A DNA stretch of 64,000 nucleotides from positions 372,001 through 436,000 of the forward strand of contig NZ_KB911461.1 in the NCBI RefSeq assembly GCF_000383475.1, read 5' to 3'. A model generated the notes under the pieces. The model saw only the letters and a program-made list of their open reading frames with translations. It was not told where the DNA came from and did not search any database. Numbering within the stretch: the first letter of the stretch is position 1; the number at the start of each line of letters is the position of its first letter. Position numbers and translations under genes: made by a program. Origin of the DNA: Microbacterium sp. 11MF. Its GTDB lineage: Bacteria > Actinomycetota > Actinomycetes > Actinomycetales > Microbacteriaceae. Below are positions 42,012-52,105 of this stretch, one piece after another.

Positions 42012-42029
42012 TCGTCGCCTCTCGGGCAA

Positions 42030-42073
42030 AAAAGGAACTCCCCTCGGGCCGTGACCCGGGGGGAGTTCCTTTT
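42030..42073. terminator. Bidirectional terminator between truA and the surface protein gene
   Basis: A stem of about 18 bp is flanked by an A-run on the left (CAAAAAAGG) and a T-run on the right (CCTTTTG), so it can terminate both the rightward truA transcript and the leftward surface protein transcript. Confidence 0.9.
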
Positions 42074-42092
42074 GCGTTGGTTCGCGAGAGCC

Positions 42093-42644
42093 TTATGCCC
42101 GACGAGCGCGGCGCACCGACGTGGCGACCGCGATGCTCGCGCCGGCGAGGACGAGCACGCCGCCGCCGACCCAGAGGCCGAGGAGAGCGTCACCGTCGAA
42201 GCCGGTGTTCTGGAGGACGCCGCCGCCGCCTTCGCCACCTGCACCGCTACCGGTCGCCGCGACCTGGATGGTCGTCGACGCGGTGGCGCCGCTTTCTTGT
42301 CCAGACGCTGCGAGCGTGTAGGAGCCGGACGCGTTGGCGGGGAGGGTCACGTCGACGGAAGCGACACCGTCTGCGTTGGCCTCCTTGGTGACCGACTTCG
42401 TCTCGACCGCGAAGGCGACGAAGGCGAGCGTTGCGCCCGAAGCGTTCTCACCCGTGAGGGTGAACTCGACGCCCTCGTTCGCGGCGAAGCCGCTGAACGG
42501 AACAGTGGCGGTGCCACCGGGAGCGATGATGGGGGCGACCGCGGGCGGGTCGGGAGTGTAGGCGTTCGCGACGGCCGGTGCCGCGAAGACCGCCGCGACG
42601 GCGATGGCGAGAGCCGCCGATGCCTTGCTGATCTTGTTCTTCAT
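42093..42644 (-). CDS. Secreted surface protein with LQNTG-like C-terminal anchor
   Basis: This 183-residue protein has a signal peptide (ISKASAALAIAVAAVFAAPA, then VANA), one Ig-like beta domain (about 30-130), a glycine-rich linker, and the C-terminal sequence VLQNTGFDGDALLGLWVGGG with a hydrophobic helix and the tail RRARRA. This looks like a sortase signal with LQNTG instead of LPXTG. A paralogue at 49604 keeps GFDGxxLxGLWxG but has LVRAG in place of LQNTG, so the retained part may be the functional motif. The gene has a good promoter, a leader hairpin and a leader 9-mer CGAAAGCAG shared with the paralogue. Confidence 0.8.
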   Translation of the reverse strand: MKNKISKASAALAIAVAAVFAAPAVANAYTPDPPAVAPIIAPGGTATVPFSGFAANEGVEFTLTGENASGATLAFVAFAVETKSVTKEANADGVASVDVTLPANASGSYTLAASGQESGATASTTIQVAATGSGAGGEGGGGVLQNTGFDGDALLGLWVGGGVLVLAGASIAVATSVRRARRA

Positions 42645-42695
42645 GGTGACTGCTTTCGGTCGTCGAGAGTTCGAGGCTCGGACGGCAAGAAAAAA

Positions 42696-42723
42696 TCCAA
42701 CCGACCGCCCCTCGTTGGTTGGA
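42696..42723 (-). promoter_or_regulatory. Hairpin followed by a T-run in the leader of the surface protein gene
   Basis: On the minus strand TCCAACC/GGTTGGA (7-bp arms) is followed by TTTTTT. The hairpin begins at or next to the predicted transcription start. It could be a 5' stabilising stem or an attenuator; it is very near the start for a classical attenuator. Confidence 0.45.
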
Positions 42724-42730
42724 CATAGCC

Positions 42731-42759
42731 AGTATCCAGGAACTACTCAGAATCAGCAA
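42731..42759 (-). promoter_or_regulatory. Promoter of the surface protein gene
   Basis: On the minus strand TTGCTG and GATACT are separated by exactly 17 bases. This is one of the best promoters in the window and predicts a start near 42724, about 80 bases before the ATG. Confidence 0.65.
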
Positions 42760-42837
42760 GGTAATCGGGTTTCGGTCTGGTAAACAGTGCCTCACTTCGT
42801 CACATGCCCCGCGGCGGGGAATCCGGCGATGCGCGCA

Positions 42838-42843
42838 TAGACT
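42838..42843 (+). promoter_or_regulatory. Candidate -10 box (TAGACT) for the first lipoprotein gene
   Basis: TAGACT lies 22 bases before the ATG at 42866, so the leader would be very short but still include the GAGGGG ribosome binding site. Confidence 0.45.
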
Positions 42844-42865
42844 GACGGGACCGCGGGGAGGGGTC

Positions 42866-43501
42866 ATGATGCGGATGAGAACCATGCGTCTGGCCGCAGC
42901 CACCGCGATCGTCGGTGCCGCCGTCGCCCTGTCCGGCTGCGGACCGTCGCCCTGGGCCCTGCAGAGCCCGACCCCGTCCGCGCCCGCGCCGTCGTCCTCG
43001 GCTCCCGTCGTCGTCGCCCCGCCCGTCGAGAACGACCTCTCGAGCGGCTCGACGCAGCGCGACCTCACGGCCGGCGCCGTGAAGGCAGCCGTCAACTACT
43101 GGTCCGATCTGCGGATGGACCGGTGGACGCCGAACGCCGTCAAGCCGGTCAGCCTGTCGCTCGTGACGACCATCACGCCGAACGACGGCCAGAAGGTCTA
43201 CCTGCAGAAGGCGACCATGCTCGCCGTCCCCGCCAACGCCACGGAGACGTTCCCGGCGCTCGACCCGCAGACCGACGAGGCGACCGTCAAGAACGGCTAC
43301 CTGGTGCTCAAGCCCTACAGCTATTCGCAGACGTTCAACGTCGGTCAGGTCCCCGAGAGCGCGACCTACGTGACCCTGCAGTTCACGTTCGACTTCCTCG
43401 TGCAGACCAAGCCGAAGTCCGACGAGTACGCCAAGCAGACGGCCACCGACACGGTGACGGTCGCGATCGCAGCACAGGCGGCATCCGGAACCGACGGCTG
43501 A
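42866..43501 (+). CDS. Putative lipoprotein, paralogue of the next gene
   Basis: This 211-residue protein starts MMRMRTMRLAAATAIVGAAV and has the lipobox ALSGC, so it should be lipid-anchored on the outer face of the membrane. A serine- and proline-rich stretch precedes a globular beta domain ending in YVTLQFTFDFLVQTKPKSDE. The next gene codes for a protein of the same layout with the matching ITLQFALDIWVEGTANDDK. I do not recognise the family. The start was set at 42866, because GGGAGGGG precedes it; the longer frame upstream covers the promoter region. A role in the GT2 system downstream is inferred from position only. Confidence 0.7.
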   Translation: MMRMRTMRLAAATAIVGAAVALSGCGPSPWALQSPTPSAPAPSSSAPVVVAPPVENDLSSGSTQRDLTAGAVKAAVNYWSDLRMDRWTPNAVKPVSLSLVTTITPNDGQKVYLQKATMLAVPANATETFPALDPQTDEATVKNGYLVLKPYSYSQTFNVGQVPESATYVTLQFTFDFLVQTKPKSDEYAKQTATDTVTVAIAAQAASGTDG

Positions 43502-43695
43502 GCCGGCGGATGCCGGGGCCAGCCCGGCCCCGCAACCTCAAGAACCTCAAGATCAGGTAAAGGCCGCCACGAGGCTTCGCGAAGTCCGCTGTCTGCGGGC
43601 TGCCGCGCCCGTACGGTGAGGACGTGGCACTGGCGGCGGTGACCCGAACCCCGCCGCCGGTGCCCTCCATCCCTTCACTCGAACGAGGTTCGCGC

Positions 43696-44532
43696 ATGCC
43701 CATCCGTCCCCACGCCCGCCGCCGGCTGGCCGTCGTCGTGCTGGCTGCTGCGGTAGCGGCCTCGCTCTCGGGCTGCGCTCAGATCGTCGAGGCGTTCAAC
43801 TCCGTCTCGGGTTCCAGCGGTGATGCGGCGGCGACGCCCGCACCGAACGCGACGCCCGCGGTCGGAACGACCGACATGCCGTTCGACTCGCAGTTCAGCT
43901 ACGACGGCTCGGTGCAGATGACGTACGAGGTCGCGGACGGCCTGCAGATCGTCCTCGACTTCTGGGCCGTCGATTCCAAGCGCACCCAGGAGTGGCATCC
44001 CGACAACCCGAAGACGTTCGGCTTCGCCGTCAACGTCAAGGACACCCGGGTCGATGAGAAGGCCGTCCTCAAGCAGAAGCGTCGCGTCTTCCTGTCGAAC
44101 GTCACGATCAGCTCGCAGACGGCGCAGACGTCCAATCAGGTGAGCTCGCCGTTCCAGTTCAGTGCGGACCCTCGCACGCTCGTGCCGACCGACACCCTCC
44201 GCTCCGCGCGCGGCCTGCTCATCAACAGCTACCAGGGCGGTCTGCTCGTCCCCCAGACGACGATCAACCAGCTGCCGCAGGACACCTACGGGATCACGCT
44301 GCAGTTCGCGCTCGACATCTGGGTCGAGGGCACCGCCAACGACGACAAGTCGTTCGCGCAGCAGACGGTCTACCCGGTCATCCCCATTGCGATCTATCCT
44401 CGTGAGACAGGAACCGACGGATCCACGGGGGGATCGTCCGACGGAACGTCGTCGAACGACACCACTCAGGGAACCACGGGTACCGACGGTTGGACTTCGA
44501 CCGGCGGCACCGGCGGTCCCACCACTCCGTGA
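43696..44532 (+). CDS. Putative lipoprotein, paralogue of the previous gene
   Basis: This 278-residue protein has a signal peptide ending in the lipobox SLSGC (MPIRPHARRRLAVVVLAAAV before it), an alanine- and threonine-rich linker, a beta domain with ILDFWAV and QDTYGITLQFALDIWVEGTA, and a serine-, threonine- and glycine-rich tail of about 40 residues. It matches the preceding lipoprotein in the C-terminal half of the domain. I do not recognise the family. The start is the ATG at 43696 after GAACGAGG. The GT2 gene starts 20 bases after its stop, suggesting an operon. Confidence 0.72.
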   Translation: MPIRPHARRRLAVVVLAAAVAASLSGCAQIVEAFNSVSGSSGDAAATPAPNATPAVGTTDMPFDSQFSYDGSVQMTYEVADGLQIVLDFWAVDSKRTQEWHPDNPKTFGFAVNVKDTRVDEKAVLKQKRRVFLSNVTISSQTAQTSNQVSSPFQFSADPRTLVPTDTLRSARGLLINSYQGGLLVPQTTINQLPQDTYGITLQFALDIWVEGTANDDKSFAQQTVYPVIPIAIYPRETGTDGSTGGSSDGTSSNDTTQGTTGTDGWTSTGGTGGPTTP

Positions 44533-44552
44533 ATCCAGTTCGAGGAACCGAC

Positions 44553-46295
44553 GTGACCAGTCCGTACATCCCCGGCCCTCAGGGCTGGCAGCCCGCGCAG
44601 CCGCCTGTCGGCGCGTGGCCCGGTCAGAACGCTCCGGAGGGGTCCCCGTGGCAGCAGCAGGCGTGGCCCGCCGCACAGGGGCAGCAGCAGCCCGCGGCGC
44701 CGCACCAGCCGGCCGCGCAGCAGCAGCCCGCTGTCCAGCAATGGCAGCCGGCTCAGCAGTGGTCGCAGCCGGCTGAGCAGCAGTGGCAGCAGCCTGCGGG
44801 AGCGTGGCAGGATGCCGCGCCGCAGGGTTCGTGGCAGGCGGCTCCCGAGCACGCCGGCTTCGGGGGTGCTCCGAGCGGTCCGGGCGAGATCGTCCCCGTC
44901 GACGAGTTCGCCGACGACTTCTCCTCCGTGCTCGAGAACTCCTCTGTCCACCGCTCGACGATCGGATGCATCGTCCCGGCGTACAACGAGGCCGAGTCGA
45001 TCGCCGACGTCATCCGCTCCCTCCTCGAGCAGAGCCGTGTGCCCGACGTCATCCACATCGTCGTCAACAACACCTCGGATGACACAGTGAAGATCGCGTC
45101 CGAGTTCTCGGGACCGCACGAGGTCGAGACCGAGCTCGGGCTGCAGTTCACCGAGGTGTTCGTCCACGACATCGGCAAGAACCCCGACAAGAAGGTCGGC
45201 GCGCTCAACTACGGCTACGCGCTCGTCGAGGGCTACGACTACCTGCTCGGTGTCGACGGCGACACGACCGCCGACCGCCGCGCCGTCGAGTACCTCGAGA
45301 ACGAGGCCGTGGCCGACTCCCGCATCGGCGGGATCTCCGCGATCTACACGATCGACGACCGGCCCATCAAGGGATTCATCGCCAAGTGGCTGATCGCCGG
45401 TCAGCGCACGCAGTTCGCCGCGTTCAACATGCAGAACCTGCTGCGCGGTCGCAACATGGCCGTGCTCGGCGGACAGTTCTCGATCTTCTCGACCACCGCG
45501 CTCCGCGACATCATGAAGGAGAACCACCAGAACTCCCCGTGGGTCAAGGACTCCGAGGTCGAGGACTCGCTGCTCTCGCTGCAGATCAAGTCGGCCGGCT
45601 ACCTCACGAAGATCAGCCCGTTCGCCCGGGCGGATGTCGGCGGCATGACCACGCTCAAGGGCTACGACGCCCAGCAGGTCAAGTGGACTTACGGTGCGAT
45701 CGAGCTCATGTGGCCCGGCCAGCGCGGTGACACGAAGGGTCAGCCCTTCCACCCGAACCTGCGCCTGCGCTGGTTCGAGCAGTTCTCGATGCTGACGAAC
45801 TTCTTCGTGCGCGTCGCGTTCATCACGCTGCTCATCGCGTCGCTGTCGATCAACGCCTTCGTTTTCTCGCCGTGGTGGCTGCTCCCGCCGCTCGTGGCCG
45901 CCGGGCTGAACTTCCGCATGGCCCGGTCGATGCAGAAGGCCAACGGACGCGACATCGCGTTCGCGGTACTGCTGTTCCCGGCCGAGATCTTCATGTGGAT
46001 CCGCATCAGCCACTTCATCCGATCGTGGACCCGCTTCCTCTCGAAGAAGAAGGTCGACAACTGGGCCCTGCAGGCGCGAGCCGAGAAGGGCGGCGTGAGC
46101 TTCGGCCACTGGACGCCGTTCATCATCTTCGGCATCGTTGCGATCGCGATCGCCGTCATCTGGAACCTGCTCGACCCGGTGACGCAGTCGGCGATCCTGT
46201 GGGTCGGCTGGCCGATCGTCGGCGTCGTCACGGTCCTCCAGACCCTCACCATGGCGATCAAGCTGTTCCAGCGTCACCAGGGCTTCAAGGTCTGA
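44553..46295 (+). CDS. Cellulose-synthase-like GT2 processive glycosyltransferase
   Basis: This 580-residue membrane enzyme has a Gln- and Pro-rich disordered N-terminus (about 1-125), a GT2 domain (about 130-390) and C-terminal membrane helices. GT2 signatures are IGCIVPAYNEAESIADVI, LGVDGDTTADRRAV (DxD, about residue 235), SEVEDSLLSLQIKSAGY (ED, about 335) and QQVKWTYGAIELM, a variant of the QxxRW motif with Lys for Arg. These residues fit a beta-linked polymer synthase such as a cellulose-, hyaluronan- or glucan-like enzyme. The start is GTG with GAGGAACC upstream. A GH6 cellulase-type gene nearby supports a cellulose-like product. Confidence 0.85.
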   Translation: MTSPYIPGPQGWQPAQPPVGAWPGQNAPEGSPWQQQAWPAAQGQQQPAAPHQPAAQQQPAVQQWQPAQQWSQPAEQQWQQPAGAWQDAAPQGSWQAAPEHAGFGGAPSGPGEIVPVDEFADDFSSVLENSSVHRSTIGCIVPAYNEAESIADVIRSLLEQSRVPDVIHIVVNNTSDDTVKIASEFSGPHEVETELGLQFTEVFVHDIGKNPDKKVGALNYGYALVEGYDYLLGVDGDTTADRRAVEYLENEAVADSRIGGISAIYTIDDRPIKGFIAKWLIAGQRTQFAAFNMQNLLRGRNMAVLGGQFSIFSTTALRDIMKENHQNSPWVKDSEVEDSLLSLQIKSAGYLTKISPFARADVGGMTTLKGYDAQQVKWTYGAIELMWPGQRGDTKGQPFHPNLRLRWFEQFSMLTNFFVRVAFITLLIASLSINAFVFSPWWLLPPLVAAGLNFRMARSMQKANGRDIAFAVLLFPAEIFMWIRISHFIRSWTRFLSKKKVDNWALQARAEKGGVSFGHWTPFIIFGIVAIAIAVIWNLLDPVTQSAILWVGWPIVGVVTVLQTLTMAIKLFQRHQGFKV

Positions 46296-46312
46296 CCCCT
46301 CGCTCGCGGGTG

Positions 46313-46398
46313 TTCGCGGATGCAATGCTTTCGCGGCGACACGCCGGTGACGGGCGTGAGGATGCCGGGTGTCGCCCGGCATCCATTGCATCCGTGAA
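46313..46398 (+). repeat. Palindromic repeat, copy 1
   Basis: An 86-base element with 15-base terminal inverted repeats (TTCGCGGATGCAATG at 46313-46327, and its partner at 46384-46398, one mismatch) and inner complementary segments GCGACAC/GTGTCGC. The ends share CGGATGCAA and TTGCATCCG with the other two copies. Confidence 0.75.
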
Positions 46399-46496
46399 TA
46401 GCGCGCACGGGGTTGGCGCGGAGCCGGTGTGCTCGCGGCATCCGCCCGTCCGTCGTGTGGTGACCCGGCGCGGGGCCGGAGGCTCGCGCGGGCGTG

Positions 46497-46584
46497 TTCA
46501 CGGATGCAAGGGATCTGCGGCGACGCGCCGGGGATGGGCCCGCGGATGCGGGGTGTCGTGCGGGATCTATTGCATCCGCACACG
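46497..46584 (+). repeat. Palindromic repeat, copy 2
   Basis: Starts GTTCACGGATGCAAGGGATC and ends with GGGATCTATTGCATCCGC. The outer arms CGGATGCAA (46501-46509) and TTGCATCCG pair. GCGGCGAC and GTGTCG segments lie inside. It is about 184 bases after copy 1. Confidence 0.75.
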
Positions 46585-46635
46585 CGCCGCACGGTGCGCC
46601 GGCGGTGAGGTGCGCGGTCTCGCGCGCGCCGGGTG

Positions 46636-46720
46636 TTCGCGGATGCAAGGGATCGGCGGCGACACGCTGGGGGTCGGCCTCTGGATGCGGCGTGTCGCGC
46701 GGGATCTATTGCATCCGCCT
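46636..46720 (+). repeat. Palindromic repeat, copy 3
   Basis: Starts TTCGCGGATGCAAGGGATCG and ends in GGGATCTATTGCATCCGC. The outer arms CGGATGCAA (46640-46648) and TTGCATCCG pair, and GCGACAC/GTGTCGC lie inside. It is closest to copy 2 at the 3' end and to copy 1 at the 5' end. Confidence 0.75.
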
Positions 46721-46746
46721 ACGCGCACCCACGCGCCCGGCCCGGG

Positions 46747-47796
46747 TCAGGCGCTGGCGACGGTTTCGGAGGTGAGGCGGTAGCCGACCCCGCGGACGGT
46801 CTCGATGTAGCGGGGGTTGTTCGGGTTGTCGCCGAGCTTGCGGCGCAGGTTCGTCATGTGCGCCTCGATCGCGCGCTTGTCGGCCTCGCCGACGAAGTAG
46901 CTCGTGACGTAGGACTCCCCGCGCAGAACGAGGGTCAGGTCGGCCTTGCTGCGGACGCGGCGCTTGGATTCCATGAGCGTCGACAGCAGGTCGAACTCGG
47001 TGCGCGTGAGGGTGAGCTCTCGGCCGGCGACGAGGACCATGCGATGCTCGGCGTGCACGGCCAGGTCGCGGTGCACGGTCCACCCCGGCCCTCCCACAGG
47101 AGGGGTGGCGGATGCCGGGGCCACCGCGGTGCCCGGGTGACCGCCCTGCGGCGGCATGCCCTGGGGCGGCATCCCCTGCTGCGGGGCGCCGTACGGGGGC
47201 GCACCGTACTGGGGGCCGTTCGTCTGCGGGACGACGACGGCGGCACCCGGCTGGGGCTGCTGCGGGTCGGTGTAGACGGGCGTCATGATGCGCTCGTCGA
47301 AGACGGGCGAGGTCGGGGCGGCGTCGAACTGCGGCTGCGCGGCGGGGCGTGCTCCGGGGAAGGAGGGGCCGGCGGCATCCTGTCGGGGAGCGGCGGCAGC
47401 CGACGAGCCGGTCGCGCGGGGACGTCGCAGCAGCGACTCGACGCGGGCGCGCAGCTCGCGCGGACGGAAGGGCTTCACGACGTACTCGTCGGCGCCGGCG
47501 CCGAGACCGAGGACGACGTCGGCCTCTTCTTCGAGGCCGGTGATCATGATGATGTAGGTGTCGCTCTGCGCACGGATGCGGCGGGCCGCCTCGAACCCGT
47601 CGATGCCGGGCATGTTCACGTCGAGCGTCGTGATGAGCGGCTGGTACGACAGCACGGCGCGCACGCCGTCGATGCCGTTGCCGACCGAGACGGTCGAGAA
47701 ACCGGCGGCTTCGAGGACCTCCACGATGAGGTGGCGGATGTCGGGGTCGTCCTCGACGATGACCGCTGTCTTATGCATAGACATCGAATCGCTCAT
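46747..47796 (-). CDS. OmpR/PhoB-family response regulator
   Basis: This 349-residue response regulator has a receiver domain (about 1-125) with acidic pocket VEDD, phosphoryl site Asp59 in LITTLDVNMPGIDGFEAARR and VVKPFRP. A proline-, glutamine- and glycine-rich linker of about 110 residues follows. The winged-helix DNA-binding domain (about 245-349) has ELTLTRTEFDLLSTLMESKR and MTNLRRKLGD with GVGYRL. The linker is much longer than usual in this family. No kinase is adjacent. TAGCAT at 47836-47841 (minus strand) is a possible -10 box. It might control nearby envelope genes. Confidence 0.93.
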   Translation of the reverse strand: MSDSMSMHKTAVIVEDDPDIRHLIVEVLEAAGFSTVSVGNGIDGVRAVLSYQPLITTLDVNMPGIDGFEAARRIRAQSDTYIIMITGLEEEADVVLGLGAGADEYVVKPFRPRELRARVESLLRRPRATGSSAAAAPRQDAAGPSFPGARPAAQPQFDAAPTSPVFDERIMTPVYTDPQQPQPGAAVVVPQTNGPQYGAPPYGAPQQGMPPQGMPPQGGHPGTAVAPASATPPVGGPGWTVHRDLAVHAEHRMVLVAGRELTLTRTEFDLLSTLMESKRRVRSKADLTLVLRGESYVTSYFVGEADKRAIEAHMTNLRRKLGDNPNNPRYIETVRGVGYRLTSETVASA

Positions 47797-47868
47797 CGTT
47801 CTCTGCCCCCCGTCCCGGTGTGAAAGTCGGTCCTCATGCTACACAGGGCGCGGACCCGCGATCGGGAC

Positions 47869-48876
47869 TCACCGCACGCCGTCGGTCAGCTCGACGCCCG
47901 CCTGCGGCCAGTACACGCCGGCGGCGGGCCCGCCGTTGCACTCGCCGTCGCTCTCGCCGGCCGGCTTGATCCAGAGGTTTGTGTCGACCACGCCGTCATG
48001 GAACGTGCCGCCCGGTTCGCCGACCCGCTGGCCCGGCGGGTTGCACCACTCGCCGTCCGACGTCGCCTCGCCGTTGCGCGAGGTGTCGACGATCGCGTGC
48101 GCGCCGCCGAGGAGGGCCGACAGCGATCCGGCGTAGGCGAACTCGTCAGCGGATGCCTGATAGTTCGACACGTTCGTCGCGAACCCGCGCACCCGGTCGA
48201 TCACACCGGTCTGGCGGATCAGGTCGGCCATCTCCTGCGGCGGAAGCCAGTTGCTGTGCCCGCCGTCGATGTAGATCCAGGTGCCCGCCGAGGTGATCTC
48301 GTCGACAGCGGTGCTCAGCTGGCGGGCGCGTTCGGCGATGTTGCCGCACTCCTCCGCAAGGGCGATGCTGTCGGGTTCGAGCACAACGATCTTCTGCACC
48401 TCGGGAGCCGTGTCGAGCGCCGCGCCGATCTCCCGCAGCCACACCGGGTAGTCCTGTTCCGACAGTCCGCCGGCGGAGTGGTTGCCGCAGTCCCGGCCGG
48501 GCAGGCCGTAGACCACCAGGGCGACGGAGCGACCCTGGTCGCGTGCCTGCGAGATGAGGTCGAGCACGGTGCCGCCGGCGGTGCCGATCGGGTCCTGCTC
48601 GGGGGTCAGCCAGTAGGCGGTGGGCTGCGCGGCCAGGTAGTCGGCGGCATCCTTCTCGTCACCGGCCAGGTCGCGCGCGGCCGCGGCGGCTTTCGCCTGC
48701 GACGGCGCGATGACGGTCGTCCCCAGGTGGGGAGGTTGAGCGGTGAGGGCGTGGATGCCTCGGGTCACCGCGCCTCCGATCACTCCGATGAGAACCAGAA
48801 CCAGGACGAGGACCACGATGATCGCCACGGGGACGAGTACGCGGGCCGGCGGCATCCGCAGCTTCCTGGGAGCCAC
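47869..48876 (-). CDS. GH6 endoglucanase-like protein
   Basis: This 335-residue protein has an N-terminal membrane anchor (VLVPVAIIVVLVLVLVLIGV) and a GH6 domain with LVVYGLPGRDCGNHSAGG, VVLEPDSIALAEECG, IYIDGGHSNWL, ATNVSNYQ, VDTSRNGEA and VDTNLWIKPAGESDGECN. These are the classic catalytic blocks of beta-1,4-glucanases, so it probably cuts beta-1,4-glucan at the cell surface. The start is GTG; a TAGAGT -10 box 6 bases upstream suggests a leaderless transcript. Its position 1.6 kb from a cellulose-synthase-like GT2 gene, as in Streptomyces CslA-type systems, suggests trimming of that polymer. Confidence 0.9.
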   Translation of the reverse strand: MAPRKLRMPPARVLVPVAIIVVLVLVLVLIGVIGGAVTRGIHALTAQPPHLGTTVIAPSQAKAAAAARDLAGDEKDAADYLAAQPTAYWLTPEQDPIGTAGGTVLDLISQARDQGRSVALVVYGLPGRDCGNHSAGGLSEQDYPVWLREIGAALDTAPEVQKIVVLEPDSIALAEECGNIAERARQLSTAVDEITSAGTWIYIDGGHSNWLPPQEMADLIRQTGVIDRVRGFATNVSNYQASADEFAYAGSLSALLGGAHAIVDTSRNGEATSDGEWCNPPGQRVGEPGGTFHDGVVDTNLWIKPAGESDGECNGGPAAGVYWPQAGVELTDGVR

Positions 48877-48882
48877 TCTTGA

Positions 48883-48898
48883 ACTCTAGTCATAGGCT
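48883..48898. promoter_or_regulatory. Overlapping divergent leaderless-type promoters
   Basis: Only 30 bases separate two divergent starts. TAGAGT (minus, 48883-48888) lies 6 bases from the GH6 GTG, and TAGGCT (plus, 48893-48898) lies 8 bases from the EEP gene ATG. Both spacings fit transcripts starting at or near the start codon. Confidence 0.5.
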
Positions 48899-48906
48899 GA
48901 ACATCG

Positions 48907-49602
48907 ATGATCACCGTCGTCTCTTACAACCTGCGCAAGCACGCCGCCGCGGGCGAACTCACCGAGCTGGTGGGCCGCTACGACGTCGACGTGCTGTGCC
49001 TGCAGGAGGTGGACACGACCGACATGCCCGAGCGCATCGGCGGTCTCGTCCTCGCCGACGCCACGAGGTCGAACCGACTGGGCTTGGCGATCTACTACCG
49101 CGAGAACGGCTTCCGCGCGGGTGCGAGCAAGACCTTCTCGCTCAAGAAGTCGCTGCACGACATCGTCTTGAAGCCGGCGGACGAGCGGATGCTGGGGCTC
49201 AACCTGCACGACATCGATTCCGGCACCGACTTCATCGTCTCGTCGTTCCACGCGGCTCCGCTGACGGCGCTGAACTCGCTGCGCCGGCATCAGATCCGCG
49301 CGGCGCTGAAGGAGCTGTCGACGCTCGGCAAGGGCGCGCCGATCCTCATGGTCGGGGATTTCAACTACCCCGTGTTCAAGGAGAACCTGAGCCAAGTGAT
49401 CCGTGAGAGCGGCTACGAGTTGAGCCTCAGCGACGCGCGCACCTACACGCGCTACAAGTTCTTCAAGGGGTACTACGACTTCGCGACCTCGAGCGGTTTC
49501 GAGATCGAGCAGGTGCGGACGCTCCCGCAGGGCGCGAGCGATCACCTTCCGATCCTGGTGACGGCGAAGCCGATCCAGCCGAAGAAGCCGAACGCCGCCT
49601 GA
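48907..49602 (+). CDS. Endonuclease/exonuclease/phosphatase-family protein
   Basis: This 231-residue protein has ITVVSYNLRKHAAAGELTEL at the start, the metal Glu in VDVLCLQEVDTTD, SSFHAAPLTALNSLRRHQI, LMVGDFNYPV with the Asp-Phe-Asn catalytic block, and the SDHLPILV terminal His. It is a DNase I-like fold enzyme, acting on a phosphodiester or phosphomonoester. No signal peptide is seen. The substrate (nucleic acid, lipid or sugar phosphate) is unknown. It is divergent from the GH6 gene through a 30-base shared promoter. Confidence 0.88.
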   Translation: MITVVSYNLRKHAAAGELTELVGRYDVDVLCLQEVDTTDMPERIGGLVLADATRSNRLGLAIYYRENGFRAGASKTFSLKKSLHDIVLKPADERMLGLNLHDIDSGTDFIVSSFHAAPLTALNSLRRHQIRAALKELSTLGKGAPILMVGDFNYPVFKENLSQVIRESGYELSLSDARTYTRYKFFKGYYDFATSSGFEIEQVRTLPQGASDHLPILVTAKPIQPKKPNAA

Positions 49603-49603
49603 C

Positions 49604-50161
49604 TCAGTCGTCGGTGCGGTTGCGGTGACGGCGGACGGCCGCCGCGACGAGCACGACGGCTCCGGCGGCGATGAGCGCGCCGGCTCCGATCCACAGGCCC
49701 ATGAGCTGGTTGCCGTCGAACCCGGCGCGCACGAGCGGGTCGCTGCTGTCGCTCGTGTCGATGACGGCGCTCGAGGTGCCGCCGGCGGAGGTCGCTGAGA
49801 CGGCGGCGATGTTGTAGACGCCGCGCGCATCGGAGGGCAGGGTGATGCGGATCGCGGGCAGAGCCCCCGACGCGTCGGAGGTGAACTGCGCGCTCGCCGT
49901 CGAGACGGCGGTGCGAACGAGTGCGAAGGTCGCTGCGGCGCCGTTCTCACCGGTCACGGTGACGGTGACGGTCTCGTTCGCGCCGAAGGTGGTCGAGTCG
50001 CACTCGAAGGTGATGGTGTCGCCCGCGCCGGCACCGGCGGCATCCGACGAACAGGCGTCGACCGGCGGGTAGATGGTCGACGCATTCGCGACGGCGGGCG
50101 CGCCGAAAGCCATCGTGACGATGAAGAGGACGGTCAGAAGGGCGCGGGGGGAACGGCGCAT
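49604..50161 (-). CDS. Secreted surface protein, paralogue of the LQNTG-like protein
   Basis: This 185-residue protein has a signal peptide (LLTVLFIVTMAFGAPAVANA), an Ig-like domain (about 45-140) with a Cys pair, and the C-terminal LVRAGFDGNQLMGLWIGAGA with a hydrophobic helix and basic tail RRHRNRTDD. The tail GFDGxxLxGLWxG is the same as in the protein at 42093, but the LQNTG sequence has become LVRAG and lacks Thr-Gly. If a sortase acts on the first, it should not act on this one by the classic route. Its leader also carries CCGAAAGCAG next to the ATG. Confidence 0.78.
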   Translation of the reverse strand: MRRSPRALLTVLFIVTMAFGAPAVANASTIYPPVDACSSDAAGAGAGDTITFECDSTTFGANETVTVTVTGENGAAATFALVRTAVSTASAQFTSDASGALPAIRITLPSDARGVYNIAAVSATSAGGTSSAVIDTSDSSDPLVRAGFDGNQLMGLWIGAGALIAAGAVVLVAAAVRRHRNRTDD

Positions 50162-50193
50162 GGGGTGCTGCTTTCGGGCCGGGTACTCACCCG

Positions 50194-50254: not shown

Positions 50255-52054
50255 TCAGCGGAGGCTGAGGTCAGACCCGGTCGGGTCGCACGACGCGTCG
50301 ACGATCGGCGACCGCGACGCGTCGGCCGTCGGGGTGACCCACGCCTCAGCCTCTCGGATGTCGGTGTCGGCGACGACGTCGATGCTCACGGACTCGGTCT
50401 CGCCCGGCTTGAGGTCGAACGTGTACGAGAGCACCTGGCGGCCGTCGATCATGGCACCGCCGAAGCCGGCGCCCGTCGAGGTGGTGGAGGGTCCGATCGC
50501 GAAGCCCGCGGGCAGGTAGACCTCGCCGACGACGCGGGCGATGCCTTCGGGGACTCCGTATGAACCTGCACCGGTGATGTACTCGGGCAGTGATGTCGCC
50601 GCGTCGGCGGGAACGGTGTTGGTCAGCGTGACCTGCAGCGAGAGCGTCCGCGGGGTCGAGCCGGTGCCGCAGCCCGACCAGCTCAGCTGCACGTCGGGTG
50701 TCACGTAGTAGTCCATCTTCGAGCCCGTGCCGTCGTTGAAGTAGACGCCCATGCGCGCCGTGTCGGCGGTGCTCTGCACCGGCTCGCCCGCCAGCGTCGT
50801 GCCGGCGAGGACCGTCTCGTCCGCCTTCTTCGCGCTCCACAGGTAGAGGCGGTGCTCGGAGCCCGCACGGCCCAGCGCGGTGATGAGGGCGCCGGGGTTC
50901 ACATCGCCCTTCGTGAGGGCGGTGAAGACGGCGCCCGCGGCGGCCGAGAACACCAGGTCCTGCTGGTCGGCATCCGGGTAGCGGATGTACACCTCGTTGA
51001 GGAGGAAACCCGCCGCGTTCTCACTCGTGAGCACGTCGCCCGTCGGGAGGGTCACCGGTCCCGTGGCCTTCAGCAGATACGACAGCGCCACGGGGTCGAT
51101 GGACATGACGCCGTCGGCCGTCACACCGTTGCGTTTCGCGAACTCCGTCGCGAGCTGGGACGTCAGGCGGAAGTCGGGTACCTGTGTGATGTTCTGAAGG
51201 AAGCGGCCGGGCTTGGCGTTGTAGATCGTGCGGTAGTCGCCGAGATCGAGCACGGAGTCCGGGTAGGACGGGATGCCGCGGGCCTGGATCTGCTCGCCCA
51301 GGGCGAGCGCTCCGTCCTTCGCGACAATGGGGGTCATCGACCCGACGATCCCGCCGAGCGTCCGCCATTCGGAGTTGTTCTGCACGAGCAGCAGGTGGGT
51401 GCGGGGGCCATCCGCGCCGAGCATCGACGGCAGCAGGGCGCTGGCGCGCGCGAGGGCGTCGGTCCCCGAGGCGACCTCCGACAGCAGCCCGCCGAGCTTG
51501 TCGACGGCATCCGCGATGGGGGTGACGAGGGGAGTGCGGTCGATCGATGCGACGTCGTCGCGAGCGGATGCCGCGACCTTCGCCGCCTTTGCTGCGGGGT
51601 CGGCGAGCGCCGAGAAGACGGCTGTGTCGATGCGTCCGTCGACGGGGACGAACGCTGTCACGCCGAAGCCGCCGGCCACCGAGGCGATCGGACGCGCTGT
51701 GCCGTTCACGACCTCGTCCACCGCCTCAGCGACATCGGCGACGGCGGCCAGCTGCGGCCCGATCCACGGCACTCCCTCGGCTCCCTGCCAGATGGGGTCG
51801 GACGTCAGCGACCGGGCGTTCGACGTGTCTTCGGCGAGGTCGTCGAGTGCGGCTTGCGCGGCGCTCAGGTTGTCGATGTCCTTGGCGATCGCGGGCGCCT
51901 TCTGCTGCGCGGCCGAGAGGTGCCAGTAGGCGAGGTAGCCGCGCACCCCGAGCCATCCGATCGCGAAGACGAGCAGCAGCAGCGCGAGCCCGAGGACCCA
52001 GACGACGACGCGGCCGGCGGTGCGGGCGGCGGGAGGGAGGAAAGTCTCGGGCAT
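50255..52054 (-). CDS. DUF4012 membrane-anchored protein, second copy
   Basis: This 599-residue protein is a paralogue of the protein at 16913. It has a membrane helix (VVVWVLGLALLLLVFAIGWL) after a short cytoplasmic tail, and a long extracytoplasmic part with HLLLVQNNSEWRTLGGIVGS, the family hallmark, and DGVMSIDPVALSYLLKATGP. A C-terminal domain of beta strands contains a possible Cys pair. I set the start at 52054, because a TAGGAT -10 box lies 7 bases upstream (leaderless spacing); an ATG at 52060 overlaps that spacing less well. Function is unknown; both copies lie in exopolysaccharide loci that also contain an initiating sugar transferase. Confidence 0.83.
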   Translation of the reverse strand: MPETFLPPAARTAGRVVVWVLGLALLLLVFAIGWLGVRGYLAYWHLSAAQQKAPAIAKDIDNLSAAQAALDDLAEDTSNARSLTSDPIWQGAEGVPWIGPQLAAVADVAEAVDEVVNGTARPIASVAGGFGVTAFVPVDGRIDTAVFSALADPAAKAAKVAASARDDVASIDRTPLVTPIADAVDKLGGLLSEVASGTDALARASALLPSMLGADGPRTHLLLVQNNSEWRTLGGIVGSMTPIVAKDGALALGEQIQARGIPSYPDSVLDLGDYRTIYNAKPGRFLQNITQVPDFRLTSQLATEFAKRNGVTADGVMSIDPVALSYLLKATGPVTLPTGDVLTSENAAGFLLNEVYIRYPDADQQDLVFSAAAGAVFTALTKGDVNPGALITALGRAGSEHRLYLWSAKKADETVLAGTTLAGEPVQSTADTARMGVYFNDGTGSKMDYYVTPDVQLSWSGCGTGSTPRTLSLQVTLTNTVPADAATSLPEYITGAGSYGVPEGIARVVGEVYLPAGFAIGPSTTSTGAGFGGAMIDGRQVLSYTFDLKPGETESVSIDVVADTDIREAEAWVTPTADASRSPIVDASCDPTGSDLSLR

Positions 52055-52105
52055 CGGCATGATCCTACGGTGACGCCGTGACGGACAGGTGTGGGGGATC
52101 GGAGA

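Follow-up and report, generated by a model that had tools for sequence, protein, structure and literature searches.

Alanine at the predicted cleavage residue of sorting signals in one Microbacterium lineage

The 64,000-nucleotide stretch of Microbacterium sp. 11MF DNA analysed here (positions 1-64000, hereafter the window) carries two minus-strand genes, at 42093-42644 and 49604-50161, that encode paralogous exported proteins, named paralog A and paralog B in the following. Both belong to an ordinary family of sortase-anchored proteins, which in the lineage of the window's genome has drifted to alanine at the cutting residue of the sorting signal (P1) in several substrates; this is mildly surprising but not a new kind of system. 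The recurrent exchange of threonine for alanine at the cutting point of unrelated proteins suggests that the anchoring enzyme of this clade may read a shifted code.

Paralog A (183 residues) and paralog B (185 residues) were identified from their open reading frames and by BLASTP, which aligned them with 40% identity over 175 residues (E 6e-20). They are the only two family copies found in the 2.91-Mb genome of the window (G000). Both N-termini consist of a hydrophobic leader ending in APAVANA, and inspection by eye found a leader ending in AxA in A, B, and the 61 homologs within the genus that could be aligned over their full length, from leader to tail. At the C-terminus, the two proteins share the sequence GFDGxxLxGLWxGxG followed by a hydrophobic helix and a basic tail. 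This helix region extends over 42093-42200 in paralog A (FDGDALLGLWVGGG, minus strand), as defined by the family alignment and tail counts, and over 49604-49720 in paralog B (FDGNQLMGLWIGAG, minus strand), where tail comparison, codon analysis, and an AlphaFold2 model were used. The pentapeptide directly preceding it reads LQNTG in paralog A (42201-42215, minus strand) and LVRAG in paralog B (49721-49735, minus strand). The original prediction, made from the DNA letters alone, had described paralogs with a signal peptide and a common C-terminal end, preceded by LQNTG in one protein and LVRAG in the other, and was right in all of this. Neither pentapeptide fits L[PA]xTG, since A has Gln at P3 and B has Val at P3 and Ala at P1. 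Because its pentapeptide falls outside this pattern, we describe paralog B as working like a canonical LPXTG protein and do not file it as one.

The AlphaFold2 model of paralog B is built of seven strands plus a long helix at the C-terminus (residues 150-184, a region of low confidence), with a mean predicted local distance difference test score of 59 and 76 of the 185 residues scoring 70-90. Foldseek searches with this model returned no match in the Protein Data Bank at E<=0.001; the best matches, at E 1e-3 to 5e-2, belonged mainly to beta-sandwich proteins, with Ig-like adhesin domains among them. Scans of A and B against Pfam and NCBIfam gave no match above cut-off. The Ig-like domain proposed for both proteins is thus not recognised by Pfam. 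The Pfam anchor family Gram_pos_anchor (PF00746) matched neither protein even at E<=1. As a substrate detector this family is too weak, with hits above cut-off in 6 of 12 genomes, the window's genome not being among those six. The C-terminal helix region of paralog B aligns weakly with NCBIfam CoaP_CTERM (NF053845), but at 13.2 bits lies far below the cut-off of 35, so that B is not a member. Taken together, A and B are exported paralogs that probably adopt a beta-sandwich fold.

The original prediction had named confinement of the C-terminal pattern to these two sequences as the case against it. Profile searches instead found the family in many genomes: a profile built from the two sequences detected relatives in 54 of 99 Microbacterium genomes and, at a stricter cut, in 150 of 366. 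A sample at the level of the bacterial family contained relatives in 62 of 249 genomes and 33 of 85 genera (up to 13 candidates were scored per genome), and 17 of 58 genomes matched in a sample of relatives, all 17 being Microbacterium. Relatives of the window's genome include M. radiodurans and M. oleivorans. A search for related loci within genome contigs yielded only two.

Across genera, what stays constant in the tail, with few exceptions, is L[PA]xTG, a helix rich in W and GxG, and a basic end; nearly all members of the wider family have the helix of the pair, G.W.GGG...RR, behind a standard L[PA]xTG. Of 75 tails from outside the window's clade, all have the P4 Leu and the P1' Gly, and 74 read LxxTG, the remaining one having Ser at P1. 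P3' is Asp in 67 and P11' is Trp in 68, and P2' and P4', the F and the second G of GFDG, are variable. GFDG is the clade's version of a common TG-x-D start. Since GFDG is not conserved outside the clade and the P1 Thr is normally fixed, GFDG-GLW is the fixed form that a normal sorting signal has taken here. The A/B pair viewed alone misled, as in this clade the normally fixed P1 residue has loosened while GFDG-GLW has become fixed. Hence the claim that the conserved part is not the pentapeptide holds for the pair and for a clade of ten genomes but not for the family as a whole. The pentapeptide was correctly called abnormal for this clade, and the proposal that another enzyme reads GFDG-GLW finds no support, a standard L[PA]xTG preceding the same helix in nearly all family members.

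The clade comprises G000, G608, G056, G015, G447, G448, G405, G557, G437, and G389. In a tree of class E sortases the ten genomes group together with support of 100/96, and the eight genomes with LVRAG do so with 96/90. The 20 family tails from the clade all have L, G, and F; at P1 they carry Ala in ten cases, Thr in six, Asn in two, and Ser in two. Paralog B carries LVRAG in eight genomes and LPISG in G437 and G389. Paralog A is more diverse, with LQNTG in G000 and G608, LPNNG in G056, LPNAG in G015 and G447, LGETG in G448, LGDTG in G405, LPSTG in G557, LPVNG in G437, and LPDTG in G389. In sister genomes whose sortase is similar, the pentapeptide is LPxTG throughout.

Alanine at P1 also occurs in substrates unrelated to the family. 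A protein of about 600 residues ends in LASTG in G000, G056, G608, and G448, in LAAAG in G015, and in LASAG in G447 and G405, and a protein of about 1200-1300 residues has LANAG in G015 and LANTG or LASTG in G056, G608, G448, G557, G437, and G389. Counting all tails, Ala occupies P1 in 14 of 45 from the clade (14 of 38 in the eight LVRAG genomes and 0 of 7 in G437 and G389) vs 0 of 140 from other genomes, which have Thr in 134 cases and Ser in six. For unrelated substrates only, separated from the family by a rough pattern, the counts are 4 of 25 vs 0 of 63; the Fisher P of 0.005 is only descriptive because the counts come from related genomes and are uncorrected for relatedness. Placed on the sortase tree, the P1 residues require three changes in A, two in B, two in the protein of about 600 residues, one in that of about 1200-1300 residues, and none in a substrate of 234 residues. 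This makes eight changes spread across four substrates, and all P1 residues other than Thr in the rows entered lie within the clade.

The P1 tally was drawn from 248 aligned rows, of which 16 without part of the pentapeptide were dropped and 47 were duplicates, leaving 185 counted. The dropped rows include some that are not sortase tails, some that resemble VSTTGG with a similar helix, and one clear LPVTG cut by the profile. The tally covers part of the profile matches, namely 40 stretches plus earlier ones, with weaker rows of G509, G018, G531, G494, G469, and others lying outside it. Near family members in G009 and G055, and in one match in G053, we observed proteins with the same GFWIGGG helix and RR tail. 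They have no Leu-x-x-Thr-Gly but sequences such as VSTTGG, and stand outside the P1 count.

Across the eight LVRAG genomes, none of the eight positions of LVRAGFDG varies, and four of its codons vary synonymously (dN 0, dS 0.42), vs 57 variable positions out of 147 in the rest of paralog B (hypergeometric P about 0.02). By itself this invariance lends modest support to maintenance over decay, strengthened by L and G being fixed throughout the clade's tails. Together with the family, its conserved tail, and the recurrent Thr-to-Ala exchange in several unrelated substrates, the maintenance of LVRAG is observed directly. The same data bear on the possibility that the signal of B, and partly that of A, no longer serves a sortase in the clade, the helix keeping the proteins in the membrane and only the helix region being kept. 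As relaxed constraint would predict, a single base change turns the threonine codon ACC into a codon for Ala, Asn, or Ser, and the helix region is indeed conserved. However, the P4 Leu and the P1' Gly are fixed in 20 of 20 clade tails, LVRA is invariant in eight genomes, and unrelated substrates keep LAxAG, which makes loss of function rather unlikely, if still worth keeping in mind.

The genome of the window encodes two sortases. One is a class E enzyme that scores 224.9 bits against an NCBIfam cut-off of 160 and contains all of the catalytic Cys, His, and Arg residues; its gene, srtE, is located elsewhere in the genome than the A/B pair, next to a rhomboid-like and a TrpG-like gene. A class E homolog was present in 30 of 30 genomes tested. 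Among 21 genomes, G389, G494, G531, and G497 have a single sortase match, and the first three of these have family tails. As evidence for a functional link, co-occurrence of a sortase with the family was discarded as uninformative because 97 of 99 Microbacterium genomes encode a sortase. No protease gene was recognised by Pfam and synteny among the conserved neighbours of the A/B pair.

The second sortase is class F-like and lies beside a DUF4397 protein. It could be this enzyme, in place of the class E sortase, that handles the altered signals: a class F-like match is found in all eight LVRAG genomes (five loci read, plus G441). We regard this as improbable, since the class F-like enzyme also occurs in G441 and G469, whose signals are canonical, scores 110.8 bits against the NCBIfam class F cut-off of 166, and is accompanied, in the six loci read, by a neighbouring DUF4397 protein whose tail, GVNTGSAG, is unrelated and does not vary. 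The DUF4397 protein and the class F-like sortase are encoded side by side (L002:456-1277 and 1138-1929), and the tail is identical in G000, G015, G056, G405, G447, and G441. This arrangement suggests that the two may form a dedicated pair using a signal without the usual Leu.

Rhomboid proteases prefer a hydrophobic P4, a small P1, and a hydrophobic P2'. A cut between LVRA and GF would fit this preference and, as the rhomboid-like gene adjoins srtE, a non-sortase enzyme of this or an exosortase-like type could process the tails and read GFDG-GLW. This is the least probable of the explanations considered, and we think it very unlikely: the rhomboid-like gene adjoins srtE in 30 of 30 genomes tested, whether or not the signals are altered, and LPNNG, LGETG, and LAAAG-GQ do not match the rhomboid preference. 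For exosortase-linked NCBIfam families we obtained only weak matches far below cut-off, no genome-wide exosortase search having been made.

The explanation toward which we lean, with limited confidence, is that A and B are paralogous Microbacterium surface proteins and that LVRAG is cut by a class E sortase tolerating P1 residues other than Thr. Their leaders would direct export, and the C-terminal helix with its basic tail would hold the proteins until the housekeeping class E sortase cuts L-x-x-X-G between X and G and links them to the cell-wall precursor. GFDG...GLWxGxG would be the clade's form of the signal after the scissile bond and no separate recognition site. If the clade enzyme tolerates other residues at P1, chiefly Ala, LVRAG could be cut between Ala and Gly and would be a working LxxAG signal in the 49604 protein. 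We infer the cleavage, the identity of the enzyme, and the covalent linkage.

In the catalytic domain of the class E sortase, the only site that is fixed in the eight LVRAG genomes and absent from the two basal genomes, G437 and G389, and from the sister genomes is an exchange of Met for Ser six residues after the catalytic Cys (Cys+6), between this residue and the catalytic Arg. The CAPKLN motif following the catalytic Cys was rejected as a cause of the altered signals because sister genomes share it and read canonical signals. We are evenly divided on the proposal that the class E sortase of this clade, formerly strict for Thr at P1, came to use Thr or Ala and occasionally Asn or Ser, that several unrelated substrates followed independently, and that the Cys-to-Arg loop, with Cys+6 Met to Ser, is a candidate determinant. 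Several observations weigh against these readings. Two distant genomes have Thr at Cys+6 and P1 Thr all the same, and G437 and G389 have Ser or Asn at P1 despite Met at Cys+6, so that the Cys+6 residue is at most a candidate. The 234-residue substrate, which is unrelated to the family, retains P1 Thr in all eight LVRAG genomes. The P3 Val of LVRAG also departs from LA/LPxTG, and the profile used for finding tails itself contains Ala rows, with the tally covering part of its matches.

Staphylococcal SasF/SssF-type proteins belong to class A sortase systems. Their LPKAG and LPNAG signals resemble LVRAG in having Ala at the fourth position but come from Firmicutes and an unrelated protein and have Pro at P3 (PMC3398289, PMC7137321). 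SasF with LPKAG is reported to be wall-associated (PMC3398289), and a Staphylococcus haemolyticus protein with LPNAG is found on the surface (PMC7137321). Streptococcus pyogenes SrtA cuts LPSAG in vitro, less well than the Thr form, and Ala is named there as a known relevant P1 residue (PMC9123276). This case likewise shares the P1 Ala with LVRAG but concerns an engineered substrate and a class A enzyme, with no lineage-wide change in several native substrates. The Cys-to-Arg loop is reported to alter substrate choice in class A sortases, tested mainly at P1' (PMC8361268), and directed evolution of the Staphylococcus aureus sortase has been used to change P1 (PMC9126251). The closest known system is the class E signal LAXTG of Streptomyces coelicolor SrtE1 (PMC5148588). 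The window's pair shares with it L at P4, G at P1', the hydrophobic helix, the basic tail, a genome that encodes a class E sortase, and the acceptance of residues other than Pro at P3; it differs in the Ala instead of Thr at P1 of LVRAG, in Val or Gln at P3, and in a helix region that opens with a long, fixed GFDG..GLWxGxG. SrtE1 is reported to contact the P3 amide through a Tyr (PMC5148588), which would leave P3 free to vary among Ala, Val, Gln, and Gly. In the portions of the literature searched, we found no class E sortase described with Ala at P1. Ala at P1 is thus already known for class A sortases, and what is new here is its occurrence in a class E clade and in several native substrates.

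Prediction of sortase signals usually relies on a fixed threonine. Should class E enzymes be able to drift to LxxAG, some actinobacterial surface proteins would currently be missed, and a shifted P1 specificity would mean that the sorting code has been caught in the midst of a natural change. The clade and its canonical sister genomes would then provide a natural before-and-after series for the determinants of P1 specificity, which also bear on sortase engineering.

The leaders of both genes carry CCGAAAGCAG just upstream of the ATG, as originally predicted, at 42650-42659 for paralog A and 50168-50177 for paralog B (both minus strand). A motif count found exactly these two copies in the window, with 0.11 expected. 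The element is conserved in the family's leaders: of the 61 homologs, 23 have GAAAG no more than 20 bases from the start, often as TTCGAAAGCAGGCA. The ribosome-binding-site-like element is most simply read as a putative Shine-Dalgarno-type site, based on pairing with the 3' end of 16S rRNA; further shared control through CCGAAAGCAG is possible.

Genes near the A/B pair were checked with Pfam, and the rest of the window was assessed by appearance. The paralogs flank a conserved module of polysaccharide-related genes. Between them lie, on the plus strand, two lipoprotein-like genes without a Pfam match (42869-43501 and 43696-44532) and a family 2 glycosyltransferase (44553-46295; PF00535), followed on the minus strand by a response regulator (46747-47796; PF00072, PF00486) and a family 6 glycosyl hydrolase (47869-48876; PF01341). 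A DUF4012 protein (50255-52060, minus strand; PF13196) adjoins paralog B. Synteny shows that this order, from A through B to DUF4012, is kept in most of 26 loci. The module is partial in six loci (G523, G605, G432, G407, G563, and G067), and G399 has no match for the second lipoprotein-like gene. From gene position we would guess that A and B, which bracket the glycosyltransferase and the glycosyl hydrolase, have a role in holding or shaping exopolysaccharide at the wall.

Three further features were noted by eye. A strong inverted repeat flanked by A and T runs is located at 42028-42075, between truA and paralog A, and may be a putative bidirectional terminator. The spacer that separates the glycosyltransferase gene from that of the response regulator (46300-46720) contains several copies of a palindromic element, GGATGCAA...TTGCATCC. 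By appearance, the window as a whole is rich in polysaccharide genes, including several glycosyltransferases, two DUF4012-like proteins, sugar transferases, and a Wzc-like kinase.

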